Source: a virus. From it: a DNA stretch of 20,273 nt. The stretch is taken from positions 1 through 20,273 of the IMG/VR virus record IMGVR_UViG_3300045976_000020; one strand, 5' to 3'. This document shows, piece by piece, positions 2,487 to 18,284 of the stretch (positions within the stretch are counted from its first letter, which is position 1; every line of letters starts with the position of its first letter). The position numbers and the translations under genes were made by a program. A model generated the notes under the pieces. That model worked only from the letters and a program-made list of their open reading frames with translations. It was not told where the DNA came from and made no database searches.

Positions 2487-4565
2487 CTACGGGTTGGAGT
2501 GCTCACCATCCGGGTTCGGACGCGAGAACATCCAGAACGACGTCTGGGTGGCAGAAATCGGGAAGTAGTAACCGGAAGCAGGAGTCGCAACGATCGTGAT
2601 GCTGGTGTCAGGGTCAATCGCAGTCTGAGCGCCAGCGGTCAGCGTGTTACCGTTGCCGTCCTTGTAGACGATACCCGTCTCGGACGGAATGGTCACAACG
2701 CCAGTGCTGGTGTTGAAGGTCGGAGCGACCGGAGTGACAGCCGTGTCGGTGGACGGAACCTGCCAGATTGCCAGTGCAGACTTGACCTTCGTGAGAGCGC
2801 CGGAAATGCGAGTCTCAGTCAGATACTTGTACTGGTTGTAGTCGATGTCGAAGAAGTCGAACAGCGTGACTTCGCCACCACGGTCAGCACCGACATTGTA
2901 GTCGCCGGGGTTGACAATGACGCCGATCAGGTTGGCCGGACCGCTCTCCATCGCCTCGACCGGAACGATGTCGGCAACACCCATGGCCGAAGCCAGATCA
3001 GCCTTGGTCGGGTAAAGCCGACGCTGGAAGCCGTCCTTGATCAGAAGCATGTTGGTCATGGTGCTGTACGTGGTGTAGAAGGTCGGCATACCCGACCCCT
3101 TGTAATACCGCATCGCGCCGAGAACGCTGTCAACGACGAGCTCCCAGTTGGGCGTGGAAGTCAGGTTGACATTGACATCGGTCTTGTAGAGCTCGTGCTC
3201 GTTCACGATGGCACGAAGACCCTCGCCGCTGTTGGCGGCACCCGGATCCTTGATCTTGTCGACGTCAGCAACATCGCGACCGTCTCCGACGAGGATCGCT
3301 CGAGCGATCTCCTCACGAAGCATCATGTCCATCTCGGCCTTGACCCAGGCGATCATGTCGAAATCGGTGATGTCGAGCATGTCGTCACGGTCGAACTGCT
3401 GCTTCTTGTAAACCGTGGTCGGGGTGGTGTATCGCTTGCTGACGGTGAACCACTCCTCCCGCTTGATGTTGCCCTTGACATAACCACGAGCACGGGCCTC
3501 ATCCATGGTGATGTCGGCAACAATCGACTTCACCCGAGAGAACGGGCTGTGAGACAGCTGGTTCAGGAAGGGAGTCACCCATTCCATCCGGCGGCTGTTG
3601 AACTGCGGAGTGCTCTCCAGAGCCTTGAACTCCGGGAACAGAACATCCATTGGGGTGATCCCATGACGAATGCAAGTGTCCTCGAAAGCCTGCTTCAGCG
3701 AACCGATCTTCAGAGCAGCCGCGAACATGTCCTTCTTGAACTCCGGCGGAAGATCTTCCGCATGCTTCAGCTCACCACCAGAGGCAGTGGTGGTAACTTC
3801 CTTGCTCTTACCGGTACGGTCGAACACGTTTCGAGTCACTTGGGTGTCTCCTTCCTGATGGCTGAGGTCTCCCTCGCCGGAATCGGTAGTCTTGTTGTCG
3901 TCAGAATGTGCGGCATCGATTTCCGAACCGGCGTTTTCATTCTTTCCGTTCTCGTATGCTTCGCCAACGGCATAGTTAACGAGAAGCTGCTGCTCAGGAG
4001 TCAATGACTCCCAGATGTCCGCAAGCGACTGCTCAGTTGCATCGCCGGGGGCATCATCACCCTTGTTGTCAGTTCCTCCATCACCATCGCCGTCTTCAGC
4101 GTGAGCAAGAGACAGTTCCAGACCAGTGAAGATGATGACCTCATCATCGAGTTCTTCAACCGATCCATCGGAGTGGCGGATATTGACGCGATCGATAACC
4201 GCACCCTTATTTGCTCCGGCAAGCACGAGACTGGTCTCGCGGATATTACCATGCATGACGACCTTGTTCTTCTCGACCAGATCGTTTGCATAGATCGAGA
4301 GATGCCTGATGTCGCCGTGCTTGACGAGCTCCTTGGCTTCCTTGGCCTTCGAAGTGTTATTGAAGTATCCGTCGATACGAACACCTTCATCATTGTGCTT
4401 CAGAATGCCATAACCGAGAATGTTGGACGGGTCATTGTGCACGTGCTGCCAGACCAAAGGAACCCTTGCACCGTCCATGTGCTTGAACGCTTCGGACGTA
4501 ATGGTTCGGCCATCGGAGCACTTGAGGTTGGCCTTGGTGGCCCAGCCACTGAAATCAGGTTCCAT
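2487..4565 (-). CDS. Fused prohead protease - major capsid protein with C-terminal Ig-like domain
   Basis: A 692-residue fusion. Residues 1-135 resemble a Caudovirales S78-type prohead protease: candidate catalytic His41 or His43 in WQHVHND, candidate Ser90 in IRHLSIYAN, then the terminal strand ETSLVLAGAN. Residues about 150-275 are an acidic, low-complexity linker or scaffold segment containing repeated His-acid motifs (LAHAED, AAHSDD, LSHQEG, LKHAED). Residues about 280-600 are an HK97-fold major capsid domain. Residues about 611-681 are a beta-rich Ig-like domain matching the tail protein's C-terminus. Self-cleavage would free mature capsid protein, probably within or after the linker. 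It starts at ATG 4565, 11 bases after GGAGG, and overlaps the portal stop by 11 bases. Equimolar protease and capsid is unusual compared with HK97, where they are separate genes. Confidence 0.9.
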   Translation of the reverse strand: MEPDFSGWATKANLKCSDGRTITSEAFKHMDGARVPLVWQHVHNDPSNILGYGILKHNDEGVRIDGYFNNTSKAKEAKELVKHGDIRHLSIYANDLVEKNKVVMHGNIRETSLVLAGANKGAVIDRVNIRHSDGSVEELDDEVIIFTGLELSLAHAEDGDGDGGTDNKGDDAPGDATEQSLADIWESLTPEQQLLVNYAVGEAYENGKNENAGSEIDAAHSDDNKTTDSGEGDLSHQEGDTQVTRNVFDRTGKSKEVTTTASGGELKHAEDLPPEFKKDMFAAALKIGSLKQAFEDTCIRHGITPMDVLFPEFKALESTPQFNSRRMEWVTPFLNQLSHSPFSRVKSIVADITMDEARARGYVKGNIKREEWFTVSKRYTTPTTVYKKQQFDRDDMLDITDFDMIAWVKAEMDMMLREEIARAILVGDGRDVADVDKIKDPGAANSGEGLRAIVNEHELYKTDVNVNLTSTPNWELVVDSVLGAMRYYKGSGMPTFYTTYSTMTNMLLIKDGFQRRLYPTKADLASAMGVADIVPVEAMESGPANLIGVIVNPGDYNVGADRGGEVTLFDFFDIDYNQYKYLTETRISGALTKVKSALAIWQVPSTDTAVTPVAPTFNTSTGVVTIPSETGIVYKDGNGNTLTAGAQTAIDPDTSITIVATPASGYYFPISATQTSFWMFSRPNPDGEHSNP

Positions 4566-5982
4566 TTTGACTGTTTCCTCCAGTCCTTGTTAGTTGTCGT
4601 TTTAGTTGCGGATGGAGATTGGACATGGACAATGGAGCAACCGTCTTTCGTGCCGGAGGTAGAGCTCGAGGTGGCGGCTTAGGGGGAAGAGCAATTGCAG
4701 GTCGGGCTGGAGGAGAGATCGCGGGTCTCGGATAGGTGCCTGGAATTCGTCGATCGCTAGGTGGGCCCGGTGGTCTTGGTGCTGGGTCCAATGGCGCAGG
4801 AGTCGGCATGTTGCTGTTAATGAGTTTATCGGCCTTCGGATCCTTAGAGGGCTTCCAACCGATTGCAGTACGAATGTCATTCGCAGTTGCGATCTCATTA
4901 CGAGAGAACATGTCAGCGATCTTCGCCATGTCGGCCATAGGAACAAGCGCAAACGGATTACGAAAGTACGTTATCGATTGACCTTGCGAGCGAGCAGTCT
5001 TGCTAAGGAAAGTTCCACGCATGGCTTCGACGATCGCCATGAGTACCGGCTCAATCGTTCGATGAAAGTAATTGTTCATCGTCGATTCACTTGCCGTACC
5101 GTTCATGATGGTATCAGTAATACCCAACTGACTGTAAAGCAATTCAGTCAGATAAGTAATCTGATCCATCAGATTGTTCGTAGCGGGTCGATTCAGCTGG
5201 GTGATCTTCTCAGTTCCATCAGTATAAGCAATGCCATACTGACTTCCCTTGAGCTGGAATTCAATGTCCTTCCGTCGCTGTTCCGCCTGCTGACGTCGAG
5301 CTTCGGACTTGATCACATACGGAAGCTGAATGATCAGATCAAGTTTTCCAGAACTAGATTGCTCATCGATCTGGTCGAGCATGTTCAACTTTCGAATGAG
5401 TCTCTGAAGAGTTGAACTGGGTTCGTTCATGATCTGATAGAAAGGATTCTCGACGATCGCTACCAAGCTCTTCGGCAGCGTGATCTGTTGTCGATATCCT
5501 TTTTGTTCATTGTAAAGATTTACTCGAACTGAATCTGGATACCATGCGACAACTTCAGCCACACGCAATGTCAAGACATCGTAAGCATTTGAATCGATAG
5601 GTGTGCTCGTGGTGTCCACTGGTACAATCGCAGCAACACCTTTATCGAACAAAGTCATTACAACGTCTTCGCGGAACTGTTGCGCGAACTGATCCGTGTT
5701 AGCCTGAACAGTGAGACAATTATTCAAACCGCTTTGAATGTCTGAAAGATACTGTCCATTTTCATCGTTCCTGATATGTGTTAGTTGCACTGCGGAAACG
5801 TCGACCGCCATTCGTGTGAGAATCGATGAAATGATCGATCGCTCATTGGCGAAATTAAGTCGAACACGATCGGGTCGAAGACCGAAAGTTGATCCACCAG
5901 CATACGATTGAACTTGCTGGTAGTTCTCATCCCAGTTTGCGAATGCATTCCACGCATGCTTAAGCTTTGAGCGCCAACCCAT
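4555..5982 (-). CDS. Portal protein with proline-rich C-terminal tail
   Basis: A 475-residue protein that would form the dodecameric DNA channel at one capsid vertex. Supporting features are its position between TerL and protease-capsid, a length typical of siphovirus portals, the segment NERSIISSILTRMAVDVS, and a helical core (DQITYLTELLYSQLGI) followed by GTASESTMNNYFHRTIEP, a pattern I associate with portal stem/clip regions. Residues from about 395 to 455 are a proline-rich, basic, probably disordered tail (PAPLDPAPRPPGPPS and similar). It starts at ATG 5982, six bases after AAGGAGG. Its stop overlaps the capsid start by 11 bases. The proline-rich tail is longer than usual and could be a docking segment for scaffold or terminase; that last point is inference. 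Confidence 0.9.
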   Translation of the reverse strand: MGWRSKLKHAWNAFANWDENYQQVQSYAGGSTFGLRPDRVRLNFANERSIISSILTRMAVDVSAVQLTHIRNDENGQYLSDIQSGLNNCLTVQANTDQFAQQFREDVVMTLFDKGVAAIVPVDTTSTPIDSNAYDVLTLRVAEVVAWYPDSVRVNLYNEQKGYRQQITLPKSLVAIVENPFYQIMNEPSSTLQRLIRKLNMLDQIDEQSSSGKLDLIIQLPYVIKSEARRQQAEQRRKDIEFQLKGSQYGIAYTDGTEKITQLNRPATNNLMDQITYLTELLYSQLGITDTIMNGTASESTMNNYFHRTIEPVLMAIVEAMRGTFLSKTARSQGQSITYFRNPFALVPMADMAKIADMFSRNEIATANDIRTAIGWKPSKDPKADKLINSNMPTPAPLDPAPRPPGPPSDRRIPGTYPRPAISPPARPAIALPPKPPPRALPPARKTVAPLSMSNLHPQLKRQLTRTGGNSQNGT

Positions 5983-6001: not shown

Positions 6002-7744
6002 CTATTCGAAAGCATCCTTATTAGCTTTGTATGCTATGTAAGCGTCCATCATTGCCGCAACATTGTCGATCTTGGCATCCATCCGCTTCTTTAGAAGCTT
6101 ACGGTTGCCATTGGTGTCCTCCATGGTAATGGCATTGCCCATAGCGAACATCATCAATGCTTGATCGAAGACCAACAATCTTTCTGCACTCAGGTTCTTG
6201 AGTTCCCCCAGCGGTACGGACTCCGACTTTGCACCCTGTATAACCTTTTCGATCCCAAAGGGGCCGTTCTCAGCTTCCCACCGAGTAACAAATTCTTTCG
6301 CGTTGTACGGGTCGAATCCCAGAGCACGTACGTCGTATTCCGATTCTTGTATGAACGCATCTAGATCATCATAGACTTCCATCATATCGAGAACGGTGCC
6401 TTCAAGAACATGAAGACTTCCCTCTCGAATGAATTCATCGTACTTTTGGCGCATAGCACCAGGAAGTTTCATCAATGTCAAAGAAGTGATGTAACTTCTG
6501 GTCTTTATACCAAAACCTTCTCGCAAGGGGAACAAGAACGTGAATGCACAAAAGTCGTCTCCTTGGGAGAGGTCAGCACCCAATGCGCAAGGCATTCTCC
6601 AGAATTCACGTTTCCTATGTGGTATTGTTTCTTCATAGGTGAAGAAGTATGTATAACCTTCCATAGGAATTCCGAATCGCTTCGCCAGGATGTCGTTTCT
6701 TGTCGCCGGAGCTTTCTCCGCACGTTCGACATCCAGCTGATACGTTTCGTATGTGACCGTTTTTCCAAGGTTTGGATTCGCCTTAAGCCACATTGAAGGA
6801 TCGGCGACTTCTTCGAGTTCATCGAGTTTGTAGTGCCAAATGGAGATATGTGGAGCGAGATACTCACCCTTCAAAATCTCCGCTAGCTCCATCTTGATAG
6901 TGTCTCCACTACCGTTCCTCACAGTTCCTTCGGAGCTGATTGCGACGATGAGATAATCATCCAGCTTCGAAGCACCTTGCTCGATTGCTCCGACGACATC
7001 TTCGCGGAGGTCACCAGACAACCATTCATCAATCGTACTGATCTTAGGCCGAAGACCCTGAAGTTTATTAATCGCCATCGGACGTATTTCAAGAAGGGAA
7101 CCCGTGAGGAAGTTCTCGATACCCTTCTTCGTAGATGCCAACTTAACACGATTGGCTCTCGATCCAGTTGTATTCTGAAGGGATCCTTCAGTGAGGAACT
7201 TGAAAAGTGGCCCTCTGCTTCTCGTAATAGCTGTACGAAAAGGAGACATAACTTCATCGGCCTGTTTCATTGTCGGCGCGGTGGTTATTTGATGTGTTGT
7301 AGCAGTGTCAACATTCAAGAAATAACTTTGAATGCAACTTCCATACATCGACTTAGCAGCACCACGAGCGACAATTAAATACTGTTTCATCGTCAAGCGT
7401 TTTCTTACGGTCTTATTTACATATCGACCACCATGACCATCAGAGTTCGGTTCGTAGACGCTTCGTTCGACGAAGTAATACCAACCGAAAATCTGTTCAG
7501 CCCAAAGCTTGAACGAAAACAACAAATGGAGATCGCTGCCGTCGGTCAGCGTGAGTTCATTCTCACAATAGAGGATGAAACCTTCGACAGCCTTATCATC
7601 ATAATAAATGTTTGGATTAGCGATAAGCGCATCAATGCGGTTCATCTCCAATGAGATTTCTCTGTTTACAGGAATCTCACCTCGAAGGACGGCCTCACGG
7701 AACTGTCCGTAATAGATAGGAACAGCCGTATTCGATAGAGACAT
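6002..7744 (-). CDS. terL: Terminase large subunit (packaging ATPase/nuclease)
   Basis: A 580-residue motor that packages DNA through the portal and cuts concatemers. The N-terminal ATPase shows a variant Walker A at residues 126-132 (ARGAAKS) and a Walker B with the catalytic Glu at 235-241 (ISTIDEW). The C-terminal RNase H-like nuclease shows three acidic positions: Asp391 in GADLSQGDD, Asp478 in GFDPYN, and Asp560 or Asp567 in KIDNVAAMMDAY. Length and order fit TerL proteins acting with HK97-type heads. It starts at ATG 7744 behind AGGAG, and ends 20 bases before the portal gene. All expected catalytic residues appear present. This is the most secure assignment in the window. Confidence 0.97.
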   Translation of the reverse strand: MSLSNTAVPIYYGQFREAVLRGEIPVNREISLEMNRIDALIANPNIYYDDKAVEGFILYCENELTLTDGSDLHLLFSFKLWAEQIFGWYYFVERSVYEPNSDGHGGRYVNKTVRKRLTMKQYLIVARGAAKSMYGSCIQSYFLNVDTATTHQITTAPTMKQADEVMSPFRTAITRSRGPLFKFLTEGSLQNTTGSRANRVKLASTKKGIENFLTGSLLEIRPMAINKLQGLRPKISTIDEWLSGDLREDVVGAIEQGASKLDDYLIVAISSEGTVRNGSGDTIKMELAEILKGEYLAPHISIWHYKLDELEEVADPSMWLKANPNLGKTVTYETYQLDVERAEKAPATRNDILAKRFGIPMEGYTYFFTYEETIPHRKREFWRMPCALGADLSQGDDFCAFTFLFPLREGFGIKTRSYITSLTLMKLPGAMRQKYDEFIREGSLHVLEGTVLDMMEVYDDLDAFIQESEYDVRALGFDPYNAKEFVTRWEAENGPFGIEKVIQGAKSESVPLGELKNLSAERLLVFDQALMMFAMGNAITMEDTNGNRKLLKKRMDAKIDNVAAMMDAYIAYKANKDAFE

Positions 7745-7760
7745 CGCATATGCTCCTATC

Positions 7761-8183
7761 TTATCCTTCGGCTGCCTTCTTAGCCTTGTATGCTGTCTTC
7801 ACTGCCTTACCTACCGGTCCATTCAGCGTATTGTGAATGTCGTTCAGAGTCTTACCCGTAGAAAGAATCTTCTTGATATGCTTGTGACCGGTGTCGAACT
7901 TGTTTGGCTTCTTCGAATTGAGATCCCGATACTGCTGCTCGAGATTCATTCTGGTGTTGACTTCCTGAAGATGATTGTTCGAAAGCGCCTTGAGCCCGTG
8001 CTGCTTGATAACAGCCTTATGCTGCTCAACACGAGCGTGATCCTCAGAAACATGTGAAGAGGAATCGGAAGAACCGCTCTTTCGAACGCCCCACTTCATT
8101 CCCTTAACGCCGTGATGAGCTATAATGTTTCCCACCAACATAGACCCGATGGCGGTGTAGTCTGGGGATTCGGGTCGGTCCAC
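7761..8183 (-). CDS. HHGVKGMKWG-motif phage protein (putative virion/head-associated)
   Basis: A 140-residue basic protein. Residues 22-35 read AHHGVKGMKWGVRK, a tag widespread in head-module proteins of phages and prophages whose function I do not know to be established. The rest is Ser/His/Lys-rich and helical (EQQYRDLNSKKPNKF, KTAYKAKKAAEG), with no enzymatic motif. It starts at GTG 8183, seven bases after GGGAGG, so it overlaps the adaptor gene by 64 bases; a Met at residue 15 lacks a ribosome binding site. A related tag (AHYGILRRSGRYPWG) begins the polymerase-like protein at 10810-13497. Inference: a small virion component, with the tag perhaps used for capsid targeting or processing by the prohead protease. 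Confidence 0.7.
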   Translation of the reverse strand: MDRPESPDYTAIGSMLVGNIIAHHGVKGMKWGVRKSGSSDSSSHVSEDHARVEQHKAVIKQHGLKALSNNHLQEVNTRMNLEQQYRDLNSKKPNKFDTGHKHIKKILSTGKTLNDIHNTLNGPVGKAVKTAYKAKKAAEG

Positions 8184-8527
8184 GATTGATCCTCCCTCTT
8201 TATGCTGATGCGAACTTCTAGTTCTTGTATAACACGTTCTGTTGCTTCAATGGCAAATGATGTTGCTGGAGGATCAAACAACATCCGAACCCGATTCGCC
8301 ATATAAGTTTTGACTAGATTCATGTTTCGATCGCCAGCAACATCGCCGTAGGCATCCCACGTGACGGTGTTGTCTCCGATCGAAAACCCACTTGTTGGGC
8401 CGACACCAAGACCGTTGAGAATCGAAAATACTGTGTTTATGTGAAGAATCACAGTATCGTCGAATGCGGTATAAGTTGGAGCTAGTCCAATAGCCTTCTT
8501 GATATCGTCGAGGATACTATTAGCCAC
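8120..8527 (-). CDS. Head-tail adaptor (gp6-like connector)
   Basis: A 135-residue protein with a helical N-terminus (SILDDIKKAIGLAPTYTAFD), HINTVFSILNGLGVGPTSGF, a TVTWDAYGD segment, and VKTYMANRVRMLFDPPATSF followed by ELEVRI. This matches small head-tail connectors that sit directly under the portal (HK97 gp6 / SPP1 gp15 type). It starts at GTG 8527, eight bases after AAAGGAGG. In most siphoviruses this gene follows the capsid gene; here it precedes TerL, between endolysin and the HHG-tagged gene. Family recognition is from memory of the pattern; the displaced position slightly lowers confidence in the exact role. Confidence 0.75.
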   Translation of the reverse strand: MANSILDDIKKAIGLAPTYTAFDDTVILHINTVFSILNGLGVGPTSGFSIGDNTVTWDAYGDVAGDRNMNLVKTYMANRVRMLFDPPATSFAIEATERVIQELEVRISIKREDQSWTDPNPQTTPPSGLCWWETL

Positions 8528-10567: not shown

Positions 10568-10810
10568 CTACAATGTGTAAGACACCTTGACTTTGGTGTA
10601 GAGGCCCGCGTTCTCAGCGATGATTGAATCGATCGCATCTTCGATGGCCTGGGTCTGCACCGAAGCTGGTAGTTCATCGGAAGTAACGACAACACGGGCC
10701 AGATAAGCCAACGTATTGTAGCCAGCTGCCTGGTCCCAAACATGCCATTCATCGAACTGTGTGGTTGGATCGAATGGATTGTCTCTTGTTGTCAGCATGT
10801 GTTCATCCAT
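10568..10810 (-). CDS. Small conserved phage protein of unknown function
   Basis: An 80-residue protein starting at the ATG at 10810, in a TGATG overlap with the stop of the polymerase-like gene, so translation is probably coupled to it. A further Met at residue 5 gives the sequence MLTTRDNPFDPTTQFDEW followed by GYNTLAYLARVV, a pattern I associate with small proteins encoded next to DFDGD-type phage proteins. It is acidic, with a helical C-terminal half (QAIEDAIDSIIAENAGLY). No catalytic motif is visible. Inference: an accessory subunit or regulator of the upstream polymerase-like protein, based only on coupling and co-occurrence by recall. Confidence 0.75.
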   Translation of the reverse strand: MDEHMLTTRDNPFDPTTQFDEWHVWDQAAGYNTLAYLARVVVTSDELPASVQTQAIEDAIDSIIAENAGLYTKVKVSYTL

Positions 10811-13497
10811 CACTCATCACCTGCTGCGATGTTGCGCTTCAGTGTAGTAACAGAGACGCCCATCATACCGGCGACTTCTGCTTGAGTGTAGCCATTCCGA
10901 AGCATGCTGATTGCTCGGGACTTCCTACCGCTATCCATGACGGCACGAGACTTAGGCGTGGCCAATTTCTTGACTTCGTCGAGGTCGGCGTGTTCAAGGA
11001 TCTGGGTAAGTTTGTGGGCGGTTAAAGCACCGGCTTGAATTGCTTCCCATTGAGTGGGGGTGATTTTGATGTCTTGCTTTTTGGCTCCCGTTTGATTACG
11101 CGCCTTCATCAATTCTCTGGCACGGAGCTTCTTGAGTTCAGCCTTGTCCAGATCTGGATTGGCCGCCTTCTTCTGCTCGTATACAGCGTTGCCGATGATT
11201 TGCGCTTGCCGCTCCAATGGACTGTTCCTCAGAGCGAGATTCAGAGCGGCTTCCAGAGATTCAACTTCATTCGCGTACTTGACCCGAGCTTCGGGAGAGT
11301 AGGGATGAGGTTTAGTTGCCAGCATCTCCCGACGTGCTCGATTTGCCAACTCCTTCATCCGATTCGAATAATCAGCATAAGTGAATTCGATCGGTGTTTT
11401 GGCGTCGGAAATGAGTGTTCGAGCGTCGTCGGTTTCAGCCAGCTTCTTCGACTTCTCCCTTTGAAGCTTAGGCAACTCCTTTTCTGTAACCACACCAGTT
11501 CGACTGTTCACAGTCCTTTTGATGTATGTTTCACCAGTGTAGTCATGAACCTTCGCACCCGTTACTGGATCGATACGGGTTCTACGAGCAGGAACACGAA
11601 TGTCGGAATTACCTCGAGAAATAAGAGTGGCTGCGCCACCACCTCGCTTTCCCTGATACTTCAGATTCAAGGCCGGAATGCCGTTGTCGATCGCCGACTG
11701 CTTGTAGTTCAGATTGTGCTTTTCGGCGTCGATGACCACCATCGAATGACGAATTGCTCTGGCAATTTCGTCGCGTGGTGCTCCCTGAAGCGTCATATCG
11801 GTGATGAGGTTGGAGATCTTCCCCATCTCGATACCCTTCGTCCTAGAGTCCATTCTAGGAATCGGGCTATCATCCGGAAGTTTGTACATCTGAGGATCGA
11901 AGTTCTTCAGACCCTCAAGTGTGGGTTCGGTTTTTACCGCTTTATTATTGTTGGGAATGACGAGAACGGTGTCTCCGTCGAAGTCAGCCCCAGACATCCG
12001 AGCTGCAACTCGGCTATTGATACCGACTGCATCTTTCGGATTCGTACCGAGAAGTTTCTTAGCTTCTGGGTTGCGGTTGTTTACCGTCAATTCCGGAATC
12101 TCAGAGATACTTCCATGAGGAAAGCGAACCAGGACAACTCGCTCACCGTTGTTGAAGTTCGGAGCGTAGATCTCCGTATCCTTCAACGATTCTACTGGAA
12201 GTATCACATGGGAAGCTTGACGCGGGAGAGCTGCAGCCTTGAGGTGGACTGCCGATGAATCAGCAGAATCAGCGTATGCCATGAGAAGACGACGCTTCAC
12301 TGTGTTGTTTTCCACAGAAAGAATATCGTCGAGCTCATCTTTCTTGTTGTCGTACGCTGTCCCAAGCTGCTTTTTGGCCAATGCATTACTCTGCTTCGAC
12401 AGCATCTGAGAAGAAAGAGTTTTCGACCACTCTTCCCAATCGCCCTCTTCGTTGACGATGTTCATCACGGAGGTGAGACGCTGCTTACCCTTCGAGTCAC
12501 GTTCTCCGATCTGATGATCGATGGTCGCGCCAAACGGATTTTCGGCATCGTCCTTCATTGGCTTCATTGCGTCGAGTTTGTTACCCGTCGAGCTTTTGTT
12601 CGTGTTGAACATCAAATCGACGCCAGGAGGCAGGTCCTCTTTGTAGACGGCCATACCTTTGAGGTAGTGGGTTCCGTCAACCGCAATACGAACCTGGGCG
12701 TATCGAGCATTACCCAGAGAGACATCCTTCACTCCAGGACGAACATAAATGACTCCGTCTGCTTTGGAACCACCCTGTTCTGCGTATCGAACAGCGACTC
12801 TTTTAGAGTCGATCGACATCGGAGGAAGAATTCGATCGTAGGTGCGACCACCATCTTGGGAGTACGTTCGAACCTGTTGGATCTTGTCCCGATTCGCGTA
12901 CACTTCCTGATACGGGGTATCAGGAGCGGCCAAGACCTTGACGGTCGTGTATTTACCCGTTCCCAACTGCTCGATCTTGACGTAGTGCACCGTATAGCCT
13001 TCGTCTTGAAGGCGGGCAACGGCATTGCCGAGCTTAGTCGATGTGACTCCGAGATGACGTTCAACTCCAGAGCCGATATCGACATACTTCTTTTCTTCGA
13101 CAACGTCTTTGAGCATGTTCGCAGTCGCTTGCGTGACGTTGGCTTTGTCTATCTCACCGGGCTTCAGAAGAGCTCGAACTGAAGATTCATTGATACCCAT
13201 ACGTTCGCCAATGGCGACGTTCGAATATCCTTTGTTCTTCAGTCGTTGCGCCATGAGAATGTCAGCTTGTTTCTTCTGCTCATTCGCTATGGTGTTTGTG
13301 TTCCGAAGATCGCTGGTGTTCATGTCGAAAGCTTTGGCGATTTCGGTTTCACTCAAGCCTTTGTCTCGAAGATCCTTGACCATTCCGAGGAAGGTTCGTG
13401 CACGCGTTTCGGGATCTTCACCAGAACCCCAAGGATAGCGACCAGACCTACGAAGAATCCCGTAGTGGGCAAGGTAGTCTTCTGCGTCAATCTCCAC
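10810..13497 (-). CDS. Putative single-chain DPBB RNA polymerase (YonO-like) with HTH motifs and N-terminal tag
   Basis: 895 residues. Residues 502-515 (SGADFDGDTVLVIP) contain DFDGD (505-509), the metal-binding catalytic signature of RNA polymerase beta' and YonO-like phage polymerases, preceded by VVLVRFPHGS (454-463), which resembles beta' upstream of its active site. Residues about 276-300 (THYLKGMAVYKEDLPPGVDL onward) resemble the beta-subunit segment NKGVxSK...EDMP...D, with candidate Lys280 and Lys286. Helix-turn-helix motifs lie near 46-66, 88-111 and 866-890. Residues 11-26 (HYGILRRSGRYPWGSG) form a tag like that of the gene at 7761-8183. It starts at GTG 13497, seven bases after GGGAAGG. 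Size is close to YonO (about 900). Inference: it transcribes phage genes, perhaps from within the virion. A DNA-binding regulator that kept only the fold is the main alternative. Confidence 0.75.
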   Translation of the reverse strand: MEIDAEDYLAHYGILRRSGRYPWGSGEDPETRARTFLGMVKDLRDKGLSETEIAKAFDMNTSDLRNTNTIANEQKKQADILMAQRLKNKGYSNVAIGERMGINESSVRALLKPGEIDKANVTQATANMLKDVVEEKKYVDIGSGVERHLGVTSTKLGNAVARLQDEGYTVHYVKIEQLGTGKYTTVKVLAAPDTPYQEVYANRDKIQQVRTYSQDGGRTYDRILPPMSIDSKRVAVRYAEQGGSKADGVIYVRPGVKDVSLGNARYAQVRIAVDGTHYLKGMAVYKEDLPPGVDLMFNTNKSSTGNKLDAMKPMKDDAENPFGATIDHQIGERDSKGKQRLTSVMNIVNEEGDWEEWSKTLSSQMLSKQSNALAKKQLGTAYDNKKDELDDILSVENNTVKRRLLMAYADSADSSAVHLKAAALPRQASHVILPVESLKDTEIYAPNFNNGERVVLVRFPHGSISEIPELTVNNRNPEAKKLLGTNPKDAVGINSRVAARMSGADFDGDTVLVIPNNNKAVKTEPTLEGLKNFDPQMYKLPDDSPIPRMDSRTKGIEMGKISNLITDMTLQGAPRDEIARAIRHSMVVIDAEKHNLNYKQSAIDNGIPALNLKYQGKRGGGAATLISRGNSDIRVPARRTRIDPVTGAKVHDYTGETYIKRTVNSRTGVVTEKELPKLQREKSKKLAETDDARTLISDAKTPIEFTYADYSNRMKELANRARREMLATKPHPYSPEARVKYANEVESLEAALNLALRNSPLERQAQIIGNAVYEQKKAANPDLDKAELKKLRARELMKARNQTGAKKQDIKITPTQWEAIQAGALTAHKLTQILEHADLDEVKKLATPKSRAVMDSGRKSRAISMLRNGYTQAEVAGMMGVSVTTLKRNIAAGDE

Positions 13498-13512: not shown

Positions 13513-14070
13513 CTAGATGGAATCCTTCTTGAGTTCATCGATCTGTTTGCTGAAGGTGACTATCTTGTCCATGATATAGACAATGAACTCATCTTCTGGC
13601 GTATAGATTCGAACCTCATCATTCTGGTAGATGCGAAGTTCCATCTCGATCTCATACGGCTTGAACCCGTACTCAAGACAGAACAGAGCTGCGTAGACTT
13701 CCAGCTGTTTCTCGGATGCTTTTACGACTCCGCTTTTATAATCATGAATCCGAAGTTTGTCTCTCCAGAAACTAATCGTATCGGCAGTGCCGTAACAGTT
13801 GTCAGAATAGAACAGTACTTGTTCGGGCACCATCTTGAATCCGATGGCGTCGTTCACGTACTGATTAATCGTCGCAGGAGTATCAGGAAGCCTCACGCCG
13901 AGACGAATGGCTTCCTTTGCCAGGTTGTGCAAAGCAACGCCTCTACGGGCCGCCTGTGACGTTTGGAACGCCCTAACCAGCTTATCATCCTCGTAGTTGA
14001 TCCAGTGATAGTTACTGGCGCTGAGAAAGGCGTGCGTTCCTTCTAGGTTCGAGTGCCTGTTGAAGAGCAC
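13513..14070 (-). CDS. RecB/Cas4-like PD-(D/E)XK nuclease
   Basis: A 185-residue nuclease. Motifs in order: His48 in ALHNLAKEAI, Asp97 in GTADTISF, Asp110-x-Lys112 in HDYKSG, and Gln122 in KQLEVYAALF. That His, Asp, Asp-x-Lys, Gln-Tyr set is the RecB/Cas4-type exonuclease signature, so the metal-binding site looks intact. The four Cys of Cas4 iron-sulfur proteins are not visible. It starts at GTG 14070, seven bases after AGGAA, overlapping the VRR-NUC gene by 59 bases, and is followed 15 bases later by the polymerase-like gene. Likely role: DNA end processing in phage replication or recombination, or host DNA degradation. Confidence 0.85.
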   Translation of the reverse strand: MLFNRHSNLEGTHAFLSASNYHWINYEDDKLVRAFQTSQAARRGVALHNLAKEAIRLGVRLPDTPATINQYVNDAIGFKMVPEQVLFYSDNCYGTADTISFWRDKLRIHDYKSGVVKASEKQLEVYAALFCLEYGFKPYEIEMELRIYQNDEVRIYTPEDEFIVYIMDKIVTFSKQIDELKKDSI

Positions 14071-17273: not shown

Positions 17274-18284
17274 TTAGTCTTCATCCATCGACAGATCGGA
17301 CATGACATCATCCATCGACAGATCGACCATTTCCTGATCTTCATCCACCTCGGGAACATCGGCGTACTTCAATTCCAGGGGGTCTTCATTGATCGTGACA
17401 TAAAGGGACACAAGATATGCCTTGCGACCGGTGTCACCATTGACCTTCCAATCGAAAGGTCGAATAATCATGTCGACCTTCTTGATGTCTGCGTAGTCGA
17501 GGAGACCACACATCTCTTCATCGAGCTTCGTTCGTCCGCGAGAGGTGATCATGTAGATCGTCGGAGGTCGACGACCTTTGAAGAAAACTTTGACTGCGAG
17601 ATGATTGAAGTTCTCGTCACCCTCTTCACGCGGAGGCTTCGTCTTGACGTTCCAACCGTCACGACGCATTTTCCCGGCGAGATCGTCGTCCAGCACTACC
17701 GAGAAGTTCCGATCACCTTCTCGATTGTAAACATCCCCACGACCCGCGAAGTTCCTGAAGACTATCCTGGCGTCTTCAAGAAGCACGTGGTTTTCGTTGT
17801 TCCCCACTACATTTCTCCATGTTTTCGTCGGAATTCCTGAAGACCTAGCCAGTTTTTCAGCATGACTAGACCCATGAGAGTTGTTGTAAATGAAGGCTAA
17901 ACAGTAGTCGGCTCCGAGTTTTACCATCTCGGCATTCCGAGCGAATCCAGCACCTCTTTTTTTCGGACCATTCCAGTCCGCAGGATGTGATTCGATTACT
18001 ACTGAATAGCCTTCATTTATTTTTTGTTTCCCCCACGCCACCGCATATGCGTCGGCGCCCCGTTTACATGCCCCTTGGACGAGAGTCATTGAGCCTTTGG
18101 CTAACCAGAGGAGACTGTCCAAAGCTTCCGCCACAATATCCGGCGAAGGCCATTCCTGACTCCCCGTCACCAAGACCCTGATGTCAGCCCCAGCGACGAA
18201 TCGCGTAGTAATACAGTCTGGTTCCGCACGTGCACGTCGATCCGAGCCACAGGCCGCCGAAGCAGTGGAGTTTCCCGCATCCAC
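17274..18284 (-). CDS. SLOG (DUF2493/YspA-like) domain fused to a probable ssDNA-binding-like domain
   Basis: 336 residues from a GTG at 18284 that lacks a clear ribosome binding site; the first 30 or so residues look non-conserved, so the true start is uncertain. Residues 35-158 are a SLOG-type Rossmann domain of the DUF2493 kind (VLVTGSQEW, LVQGACKRGADAYA, FARNAEMVKLGAD), thought to bind nucleotides or nucleotide-derived ligands. Residues about 170-308 (ARIVFRNFAGRGDVYNREGD; FFKGRRPPTIYMITSRGRTK; VDMIIRPFDWKVNGDTG) match a phage family I associate with ssDNA-binding proteins, usually encoded alone. The acidic C-terminus has DLSMDD twice, like SSB tails that recruit partners. It follows the paralogue array and precedes the helicase operon, fitting replication. 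Confidence 0.75.
   Translation of the reverse strand: MDAGNSTASAACGSDRRARAEPDCITTRFVAGADIRVLVTGSQEWPSPDIVAEALDSLLWLAKGSMTLVQGACKRGADAYAVAWGKQKINEGYSVVIESHPADWNGPKKRGAGFARNAEMVKLGADYCLAFIYNNSHGSSHAEKLARSSGIPTKTWRNVVGNNENHVLLEDARIVFRNFAGRGDVYNREGDRNFSVVLDDDLAGKMRRDGWNVKTKPPREEGDENFNHLAVKVFFKGRRPPTIYMITSRGRTKLDEEMCGLLDYADIKKVDMIIRPFDWKVNGDTGRKAYLVSLYVTINEDPLELKYADVPEVDEDQEMVDLSMDDVMSDLSMDED
17281..17325. repeat. 27-base-spaced direct repeat at the SLOG-fusion C-terminus
   Basis: TCATCCATCGACAGATCG occurs exactly at 17281-17298 and 17308-17325. The 27-base period keeps the reading frame and duplicates the acidic DLSMDD unit of the encoded tail, consistent with a small in-frame tandem duplication. 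Confidence 0.8.

Follow-up and report, generated by a model that had tools for sequence, protein, structure and literature searches.

A predicted two-barrel RNA polymerase with a virion-type tag and a candidate early promoter in siphophages of Actinobacteria and Firmicutes

Results

A polymerase gene ahead of the structural genes

The window analysed in this work (the whole stretch of DNA under study, a 20,273-base virus fragment from IMG/VR) encodes a protein in which the initial annotation, made from the sequence alone, saw a putative single-chain RNA polymerase (RNAP) with a DFDGD active site, extra helix-turn-helix (HTH) motifs and a tag resembling those of head proteins. The open reading frame (ORF) is real at the coordinates given in Table 1 and lies on the minus strand, which had been left unstated; it was also correctly placed before the late genes, the structural genes being found downstream of it. 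The protein matches PHROG 4291 over its full length (1304 bits), and a tblastn search turned up about 250 phage records that contain a homologue (95 of Arthrobacter, 55 of Gordonia, 54 of Streptomyces, 13 of Lactococcus and some of other hosts), mostly under the annotation 'helix-turn-helix' or 'RNA-dependent RNA polymerase'. Eight members of the family (G032, G033, G044, G047, G051, G057, G065 and G067) match the RNAP with one internal stop codon (TAG, TGA or TAA), which possibly reflects read-through near the end of the match or broken copies.

In the direction of transcription, the RNAP gene is preceded by genes for a helicase, an HNH endonuclease and a Cas4-like exonuclease. It is followed by an HNH-like ORF (P0004, assigned by eye) and by genes for a connector, a small tagged protein, terminase, portal, a protease-capsid fusion and the tail. 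In complete genomes the RNAP gene typically lies at the right end, after the Cas4 exonuclease.

Table 1. Predicted features of the RNAP gene and of its neighbours in the window
Feature	Position	Strand	Basis
Predicted single-chain two-barrel RNAP, 895 amino acids, GTG start at 13497	10810..13497	minus	PHROG 4291; AlphaFold2 and Foldseek
Virion-type tag HYGILRRSGRYPWGSG, residues 11-26	13420..13467	minus	Conserved; shared in type with head-cluster proteins from other phages
HTH-like unit 1, residues 36-59	13321..13392	minus	Model helices 36-45 and 50-56; PHROG regulator match 39-59; weak
HTH-like unit 2, residues 80-112	13162..13260	minus	Model helices 93-100 and 104-111; HTH_38/Sigma70_r4 sub-threshold
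Barrel A (beta-like), residues 264-300, with invariant R270 and K280-G281	12598..12708	minus	Conservation; core model
R-F-P-H motif (R458, P460, H461), equivalent to beta' RAPTLH	12112..12132	minus	Invariant in 120 homologues; aligned with YonO R-x-P-H
Catalytic DFDGD (505-509) of barrel B (beta'-like)	11971..11985	minus	Invariant in 120 homologues; YonO PHROG 8308 match over 433-518
Bridge-helix candidate, residues 558-594 (MGKISNLITDM...HSMVVIDAEK helices after barrel B)	11716..11826	minus	Model helices 551-570 and 575-594
C-terminal sigma-r4/HTH_23-like HTH, residues 856-891	10825..10932	minus	Above Pfam cut-off (HTH_23, Sigma70_r4_2)
Cas4-like exonuclease, directly upstream of the RNAP gene	13513..14070	minus	PHROG 3953
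Phage connector/virion structural protein	8120..8527	minus	PF24829; PHROG 4247
Small protein with DUF7211 tag HHGVKGMKWGVR (tag at about 8082-8117), between connector and terminase	7761..8183	minus	PF23847 (1.6e-10); PHROG 7021 (2.1e-24)
Terminase large subunit	6002..7744	minus	PHROG 9; PF20441
Portal protein	4555..5982	minus	PHROG 12; PF04860
Head maturation protease fused to capsid	2487..4565	minus	PHROG 3270; PF04586 above cut-off; PF05065 weak

Two-barrel fold and invariant active site

AlphaFold2 modelled the full-length protein with a predicted local distance difference test (pLDDT) of 89.4 and a predicted template-modelling (TM) score of 0.82, and the core (residues 225-620) with a pLDDT of 89.4. 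In Foldseek searches against PDB, the top matches of the full-length model were QDE-1, P74-26 gp62 and RDR2, with weak matches to crAss-like phage phi14:2 gp66 and to cellular RNAPs. The core model matched QDE-1 (E-value 9e-12, query-normalised TM-score up to 0.59), P74-26 gp62 (1e-10), P23-45 gp64 (9e-10) and P23-45 gp96 (3e-5), and nearly all of its best 50 matches were two-barrel RNAPs or complexes containing one. Every PDB match with an E-value of 0.001 or less was a two-barrel RNAP. The presence of two double-psi beta-barrels was judged from these fold matches, not strand by strand. No T7-like palm-fold polymerase family was found in Pfam scans or among the 50 top-ranked fold matches. A phmmer search of the window protein against PDB sequences gave no match, and a profile search against PDB sequences, which was set aside, matched only HTH and designed helical proteins. 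No profile could be made for P23-45 gp64, as the sole relative found in viral contigs was gp64 itself.

Conservation was assessed in 120 diverse homologues, which share 43-68% identity with the window protein. DFDGD lies inside SGADFDGDTVLVIP, with VVLVRFPHGS just ahead of it (454-463), and the beta-type barrel motif KGMAVYKEDLPPGVDLMFN, which the initial annotation had noticed at about 276-300, begins at K280. Residues D505, D507, D509, K280, R270, R458, P460 and H461 are invariant throughout the set, so the DFDGD, R-F-P-H and K280 motifs are not due to chance. In known RNAPs the aspartate triad and R-x-P..H belong to barrel B of beta', and K-G to barrel A of beta; the invariant positions agree with this anatomy. 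K280 and R270 were equated with K1073 and K1065 of beta by motif, not by superposition. In the bridge-helix candidate G559, N563, S585, I589 and D590 are invariant, and G-x-x-S-N is common to YonO of phage SPbeta. Fold matches and invariant active site together support the proposal that the two catalytic barrels of a compact phage RNAP are united in one chain, and the prediction that the window protein is a single-chain RNAP of the two-barrel superfamily is strongly supported.

Since the closest solved folds are QDE-1 and RDR2 and since PF05183, the family of RNA-dependent RNA polymerases (RdRPs), is matched by 12 of 19 relatives (best E-value 4e-5; weakly, at 0.031, by the window protein), the protein might be taken for a true RdRP, as the PHROG 4291 and RefSeq names have it. 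This is very improbable: the family is carried by double-stranded DNA tailed phages, some of the QDE-1 structures matched by Foldseek contain a DNA template, and the sigma-like HTH units and the DNA element described below point to DNA. The RdRP name probably arose from distant homology. We would expect the predicted polymerase to synthesise RNA and to use DNA as its template.

The suggestion of three HTH motifs for built-in DNA binding held in part. The C-terminal unit passes the Pfam cut-off, and Sigma70_r4_2 was matched at the C-terminus in 19 of 19 relatives, whereas the two N-terminal units are plausible and individually weak. Helices of the AlphaFold2 model (36-56, 93-111 and 856-894) are consistent with all three.

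A conserved tag shared with head-cluster proteins

AlphaFold2 left residues 1-32 disordered, yet they contain a tag with the pattern H11-Y-G-n4-S-G-R-Y-P-W-G-S-G26, whose mean column conservation is 0.87 as compared with 0.63 for the whole protein. Such conservation in a disordered segment, close to that of the active site, is characteristic of short linear motifs with a binding partner. The likeness to head proteins is real as well. Head-cluster proteins of the same phages bear a related tag, H[YH]G..G[MQ][KR]WG, known in Pfam as DUF7211; in the window it is found on the small protein between connector and terminase. One or more other tagged proteins are encoded on the same strand in 60 of the 69 related loci whose sequence extends 5 kb or more downstream of the RNAP gene (reversed-protein control, 0).

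The DUF7211 model (PF23847) did not match the RNAP tag itself. The two forms are linked through intermediate proteins that carry the long form. Thus, the protein encoded between the connector and terminase genes of loci L197 and L211 has the RNAP form of the tag (HYGLPRRSGRYKWGSGKEPYQ and HYGMPRRSGRYKWGSGKDPYQ), L214 encodes two adjacent non-RNAP proteins with this form, and L212 encodes one, upstream of terminase. PHROG 7021, the family of the tagged protein of the window, is matched by one such protein each in L197 and L214. These proteins provide a direct bridge between the RNAP form and the DUF7211 form. A portal protein (L186, 18160-19836) carries H..G.KGQKWG near its C-terminus (residue 433), so the tag is present on a bona fide head component. 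Two enzyme-like proteins are tagged, too: gp6 of Streptomyces phage Bilo (L192, 2269-3171) is a GNAT acetyltransferase with a DUF7211 tag on each side, and gp015 of Rhodococcus phage ReqiPoco6 (L195, 14111-15727) combines a LigT/2'-5' RNA ligase-like domain with such a tag. Both look like further packaged enzymes. We found nothing relevant on the tag (searched as GQKWG) in open-access papers.

Evidence for packaging in the virion

The product of orf75 of Lactococcus phage 1706 is 38% identical to the window protein from end to end and has the same tag and DFDGD. RefSeq names it 'RNA-dependent RNA polymerase'; its authors' GenBank record (EU081845) calls it 'structural protein'. In that record the unqualified label is given to orfs 6, 7, 11, 12, 13 ('major'), 17, 20, 21, 62, 71 and 75, falling otherwise on connector, tail and similar genes, and the label 'putative' goes to sequence-based predictions (portal, terminase and some of the tail genes). 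We infer that the unqualified labels derive from virion proteomics, and work of this kind by Garneau and co-workers in 2008 is said to lie behind them. One other bearer of the label, orf7, has two DUF7211-type tags. The label is also found on orf62 and orf71 (L202/L203), small genes outside the structural cluster. The label of orf75 and the tag suggest that an RNAP of the window type is most likely a virion RNAP, and by the same token the enzyme would be packaged in the phage of the window.

The 'structural protein' label would also suit a catalytically dead two-barrel protein retained as a structural component of the head. We find this scarcely credible, because the catalytic residues are all invariant in the 120 diverse sequences.

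A conserved element before early genes

When the intergenic regions of Lactococcus phages 1706 and P078 and of Bilo were searched for motifs, each phage yielded the same composite element. In its full form, TCGCA-n4-TTACAYRCCCTATAATGAGACCCC, the element is contiguous, about 30-35 bp long, conserved before early genes and devoid of a -35 box. A matrix derived from these sites recovered the element in Arthrobacter phage Mudcat and in ReqiPoco6, where all copies lie on the coding strand of the early region; none was found in the examined stretches of P23-45, SPbeta and phi3T. A motif search seeded in Mudcat itself had yielded terminator-like repeats, not promoters, and 12-bp motifs in 1706, P078 and Mudcat were set aside as ribosome-binding sites. 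Between the early genes of Mudcat (L194, 27009-33432) there is a repeated 28-bp hairpin followed by a T-run (CCTAACAnGnnCTTAGGTTTTTG), probably a terminator paired with the promoters. Some copies of the element in P078 and P092 (L193, 23619-24000, and L305) directly precede tRNA-like sequences (gactttagctcagag...), and the element may also drive RNA genes.

Among 25 environmental contigs picked solely for encoding the RNAP, 17 contained the element (65 hits, up to two mismatches allowed), on one strand per genome throughout; the reversed pattern gave 0 hits in the same contigs. In a motif-first search, exact patterns were scanned through IMG/VR contigs in two scans. PHROG 4291 was encoded by 25 of the 27 motif-positive contigs of at least 40 kb in the first scan and, among the matches listed, by 16 of 17 in the second; pooled, the RNAP is present in 41 of 44 contigs of this size found by the element alone, among the matches listed. 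The first scan also gave five motif-positive contigs of at least 30 kb that lack the RNAP. Four of these encode a terminase 82-84% identical to that of the window, and a Cas4 neighbour was found in none of the five, as expected of truncated relatives. The same terminase identity ties the element to the window's own phage group.

Alignment of 106 non-redundant sites gave TCGCA-n4-TTACAYRCCCTATAATGAGACCCCTA followed by a Shine-Dalgarno sequence, with no conservation of a -35 box; the upstream TCGCA block, which had been absent from the search pattern, emerged from this alignment. The 3' end of the element falls within GAGACCCC. A Shine-Dalgarno sequence and start codon follow within 40 nt (median 21) in 75% of 322 unique full elements; at random positions the share is 15%. 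Seven RNAP-positive genomes without the exact pattern were searched de novo, and six of them yielded a diverged form whose spacing is unchanged; in it the TATAAT hexamer itself varies, and CGC and ACA are kept. The seventh, L374, gave no motif, perhaps because the wrong region was fetched. Phage-specific promoter-like elements before early genes are present in the relatives, as sequence elements and not as mapped transcription starts. A search of open-access papers for the element (CTATAATGAGA) returned nothing relevant.

The TATAAT of the element, followed by a typical start distance, is what host RNAP with a host sigma factor and a phage activator might read, in which case the phage RNAP would do something else. 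We consider this unlikely. There is no -35 box at sigma-70 spacing, conserved blocks lie in the would-be spacer (TTACAY) and at TCGCA, some phages that keep CGC and ACA have CTTAGATGAGA, TAATAGTGAGA or TTATGGAA and so lack the TATAAT hexamer, phages of Lactococcus and of actinobacteria have this element in common, and the RNAP is missing from very few of the contigs picked out by the element. Having HTH units, the RNAP is the economical candidate reader, and its co-occurrence with the element and the geometry of the sites suggest that RNAPs of the window type would read it.

The initial annotation had offered late or early-injected transcription as possible roles. Late transcription by a non-virion single-chain RNAP, whose tag would then serve some other role, has a parallel in YonO, which transcribes the late genes of SPbeta (PMC5467207) and to which the window protein has a distant sequence link; the RNAP gene of the window is, moreover, directly upstream of structural genes. 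We give this possibility little weight, as the tag is common to head-cluster proteins, 1706 orf75 is labelled 'structural protein' and the element precedes early genes, not structural ones. The same three observations favour an early role after injection.

Other features of the window

The protease-capsid fusion ORF has a weak Flg_new_2/InlB-repeat-like match near its C-terminal end. At 17274-18284, on the minus strand, a SLOG-like (YAcAr) domain is fused to a single-strand annealing/ssDNA-binding domain.

Discussion

A model of early transcription by an injected polymerase

Our preferred interpretation, which we regard as likely, is that the protein is a single-chain DNA-dependent two-barrel RNAP that travels in the virion, is delivered into the cell along with the DNA and initiates early transcription from a promoter of its own. 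The enzyme would be made with the late genes, recruited into the head by its disordered N-terminal tag, which is of the kind seen on head-cluster proteins, and injected into the cell. There its HTH units, without a host sigma factor, would recognise the element before early genes, and DFDGD of barrel B together with K280/R270 of barrel A would catalyse RNA synthesis. The fold, the conserved active site, the tag shared with head-cluster proteins, and the element and its association with the RNAP are well supported computationally; injection of the RNAP is presumed. We also lean, with less assurance, towards a broader proposal: a widespread lineage among the siphophages of Actinobacteria and Firmicutes would inject a sigma-free RNAP of about 100 kDa, targeted to the head by a short, portable tag that is shared with packaged enzymes (acetyltransferase, LigT-like) and starting all early transcription at a promoter of about 30-35 bp conserved across phyla.

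Several points weigh against this interpretation. Whole-chain TM-scores are about 0.3, the good alignment being confined to the core. The link to YonO (PHROG 8308), which the initial annotation had proposed to check by profile comparison, gave a mixed picture: the window protein matches PHROG 8308 at 4e-6 over residues 433-518, but hhalign, which superposes R-x-P-H, D-x-D-G-D and G-x-x-S-N, gives a probability of 2%, too weak for us to claim membership of the YonO family. Packaging is deduced from one GenBank label together with the tag. The element is absent from the window fragment, which lacks the early region of the phage, and one 46-kb motif-positive contig has no RNAP. Co-occurrence of RNAP and element could stem from shared lineage, with another protein of the lineage as the reader, and the TATAAT makes recognition by a host sigma factor with a phage activator possible.

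The ORF belongs to a known protein family, and two-barrel virion RNAPs are already known. What is new is the proposed role as a virion RNAP, with its tag and promoter, which lies outside the existing annotation of PHROG 4291; we found no description of this family as a virion RNAP, or of its tag or promoter, in the open-access literature. If the model is true, hundreds of phage isolates of Streptomyces, Arthrobacter, Gordonia, Rhodococcus and Lactococcus begin infection with their own injected RNAP, which would change the view of their gene expression and host independence. A compact, single-chain, apparently sigma-free RNAP with a candidate promoter would be a natural tool for in vitro transcription and could serve as a simple model of how cellular RNAP arose, and the short tag would offer a general signal, open to testing, by which enzymes are brought into phage heads.

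Comparison with known systems

Over its full length the window protein belongs to PHROG 4291, the 'HTH DNA-binding protein' of actinobacteriophages, and its tag is analogous to the short H-[HY]-G..G-M-K-W-G tag of DUF7211. The best structural matches of its core, QDE-1 and the RDR enzymes of eukaryotes, are cellular RNA-interference enzymes, unlike the phage RNAP, and we know of no such tag or added HTH units in them. The crAss-like phage phi14:2 packages gp66, a single-chain two-barrel RNAP, in its virion; this protein (PDB 6vr4) is a weak Foldseek match (1.6e-2) and has 2166 residues as compared with 895. YonO resembles the window protein in being a single chain (about 840-895 amino acids) with D-x-D-G-D, R-x-P-H and G-x-x-S-N, but it has no tag, and the element is missing from the examined stretches of SPbeta and phi3T. 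The P23-45 proteins gp96 and gp64 and P74-26 gp62 share the single-chain two-barrel fold and DxDxD with the window protein; they match it by fold alone, and no SGRYPWGSG tag has been described for them. Unlike the window protein, gp96 is fused to the tape measure protein, and its promoter differs. Being a virion RNAP with an early promoter motif specific to its phage, gp96 is the precedent for an enzyme that arrives with the virion and begins early transcription from its own promoter (PMC10770324).

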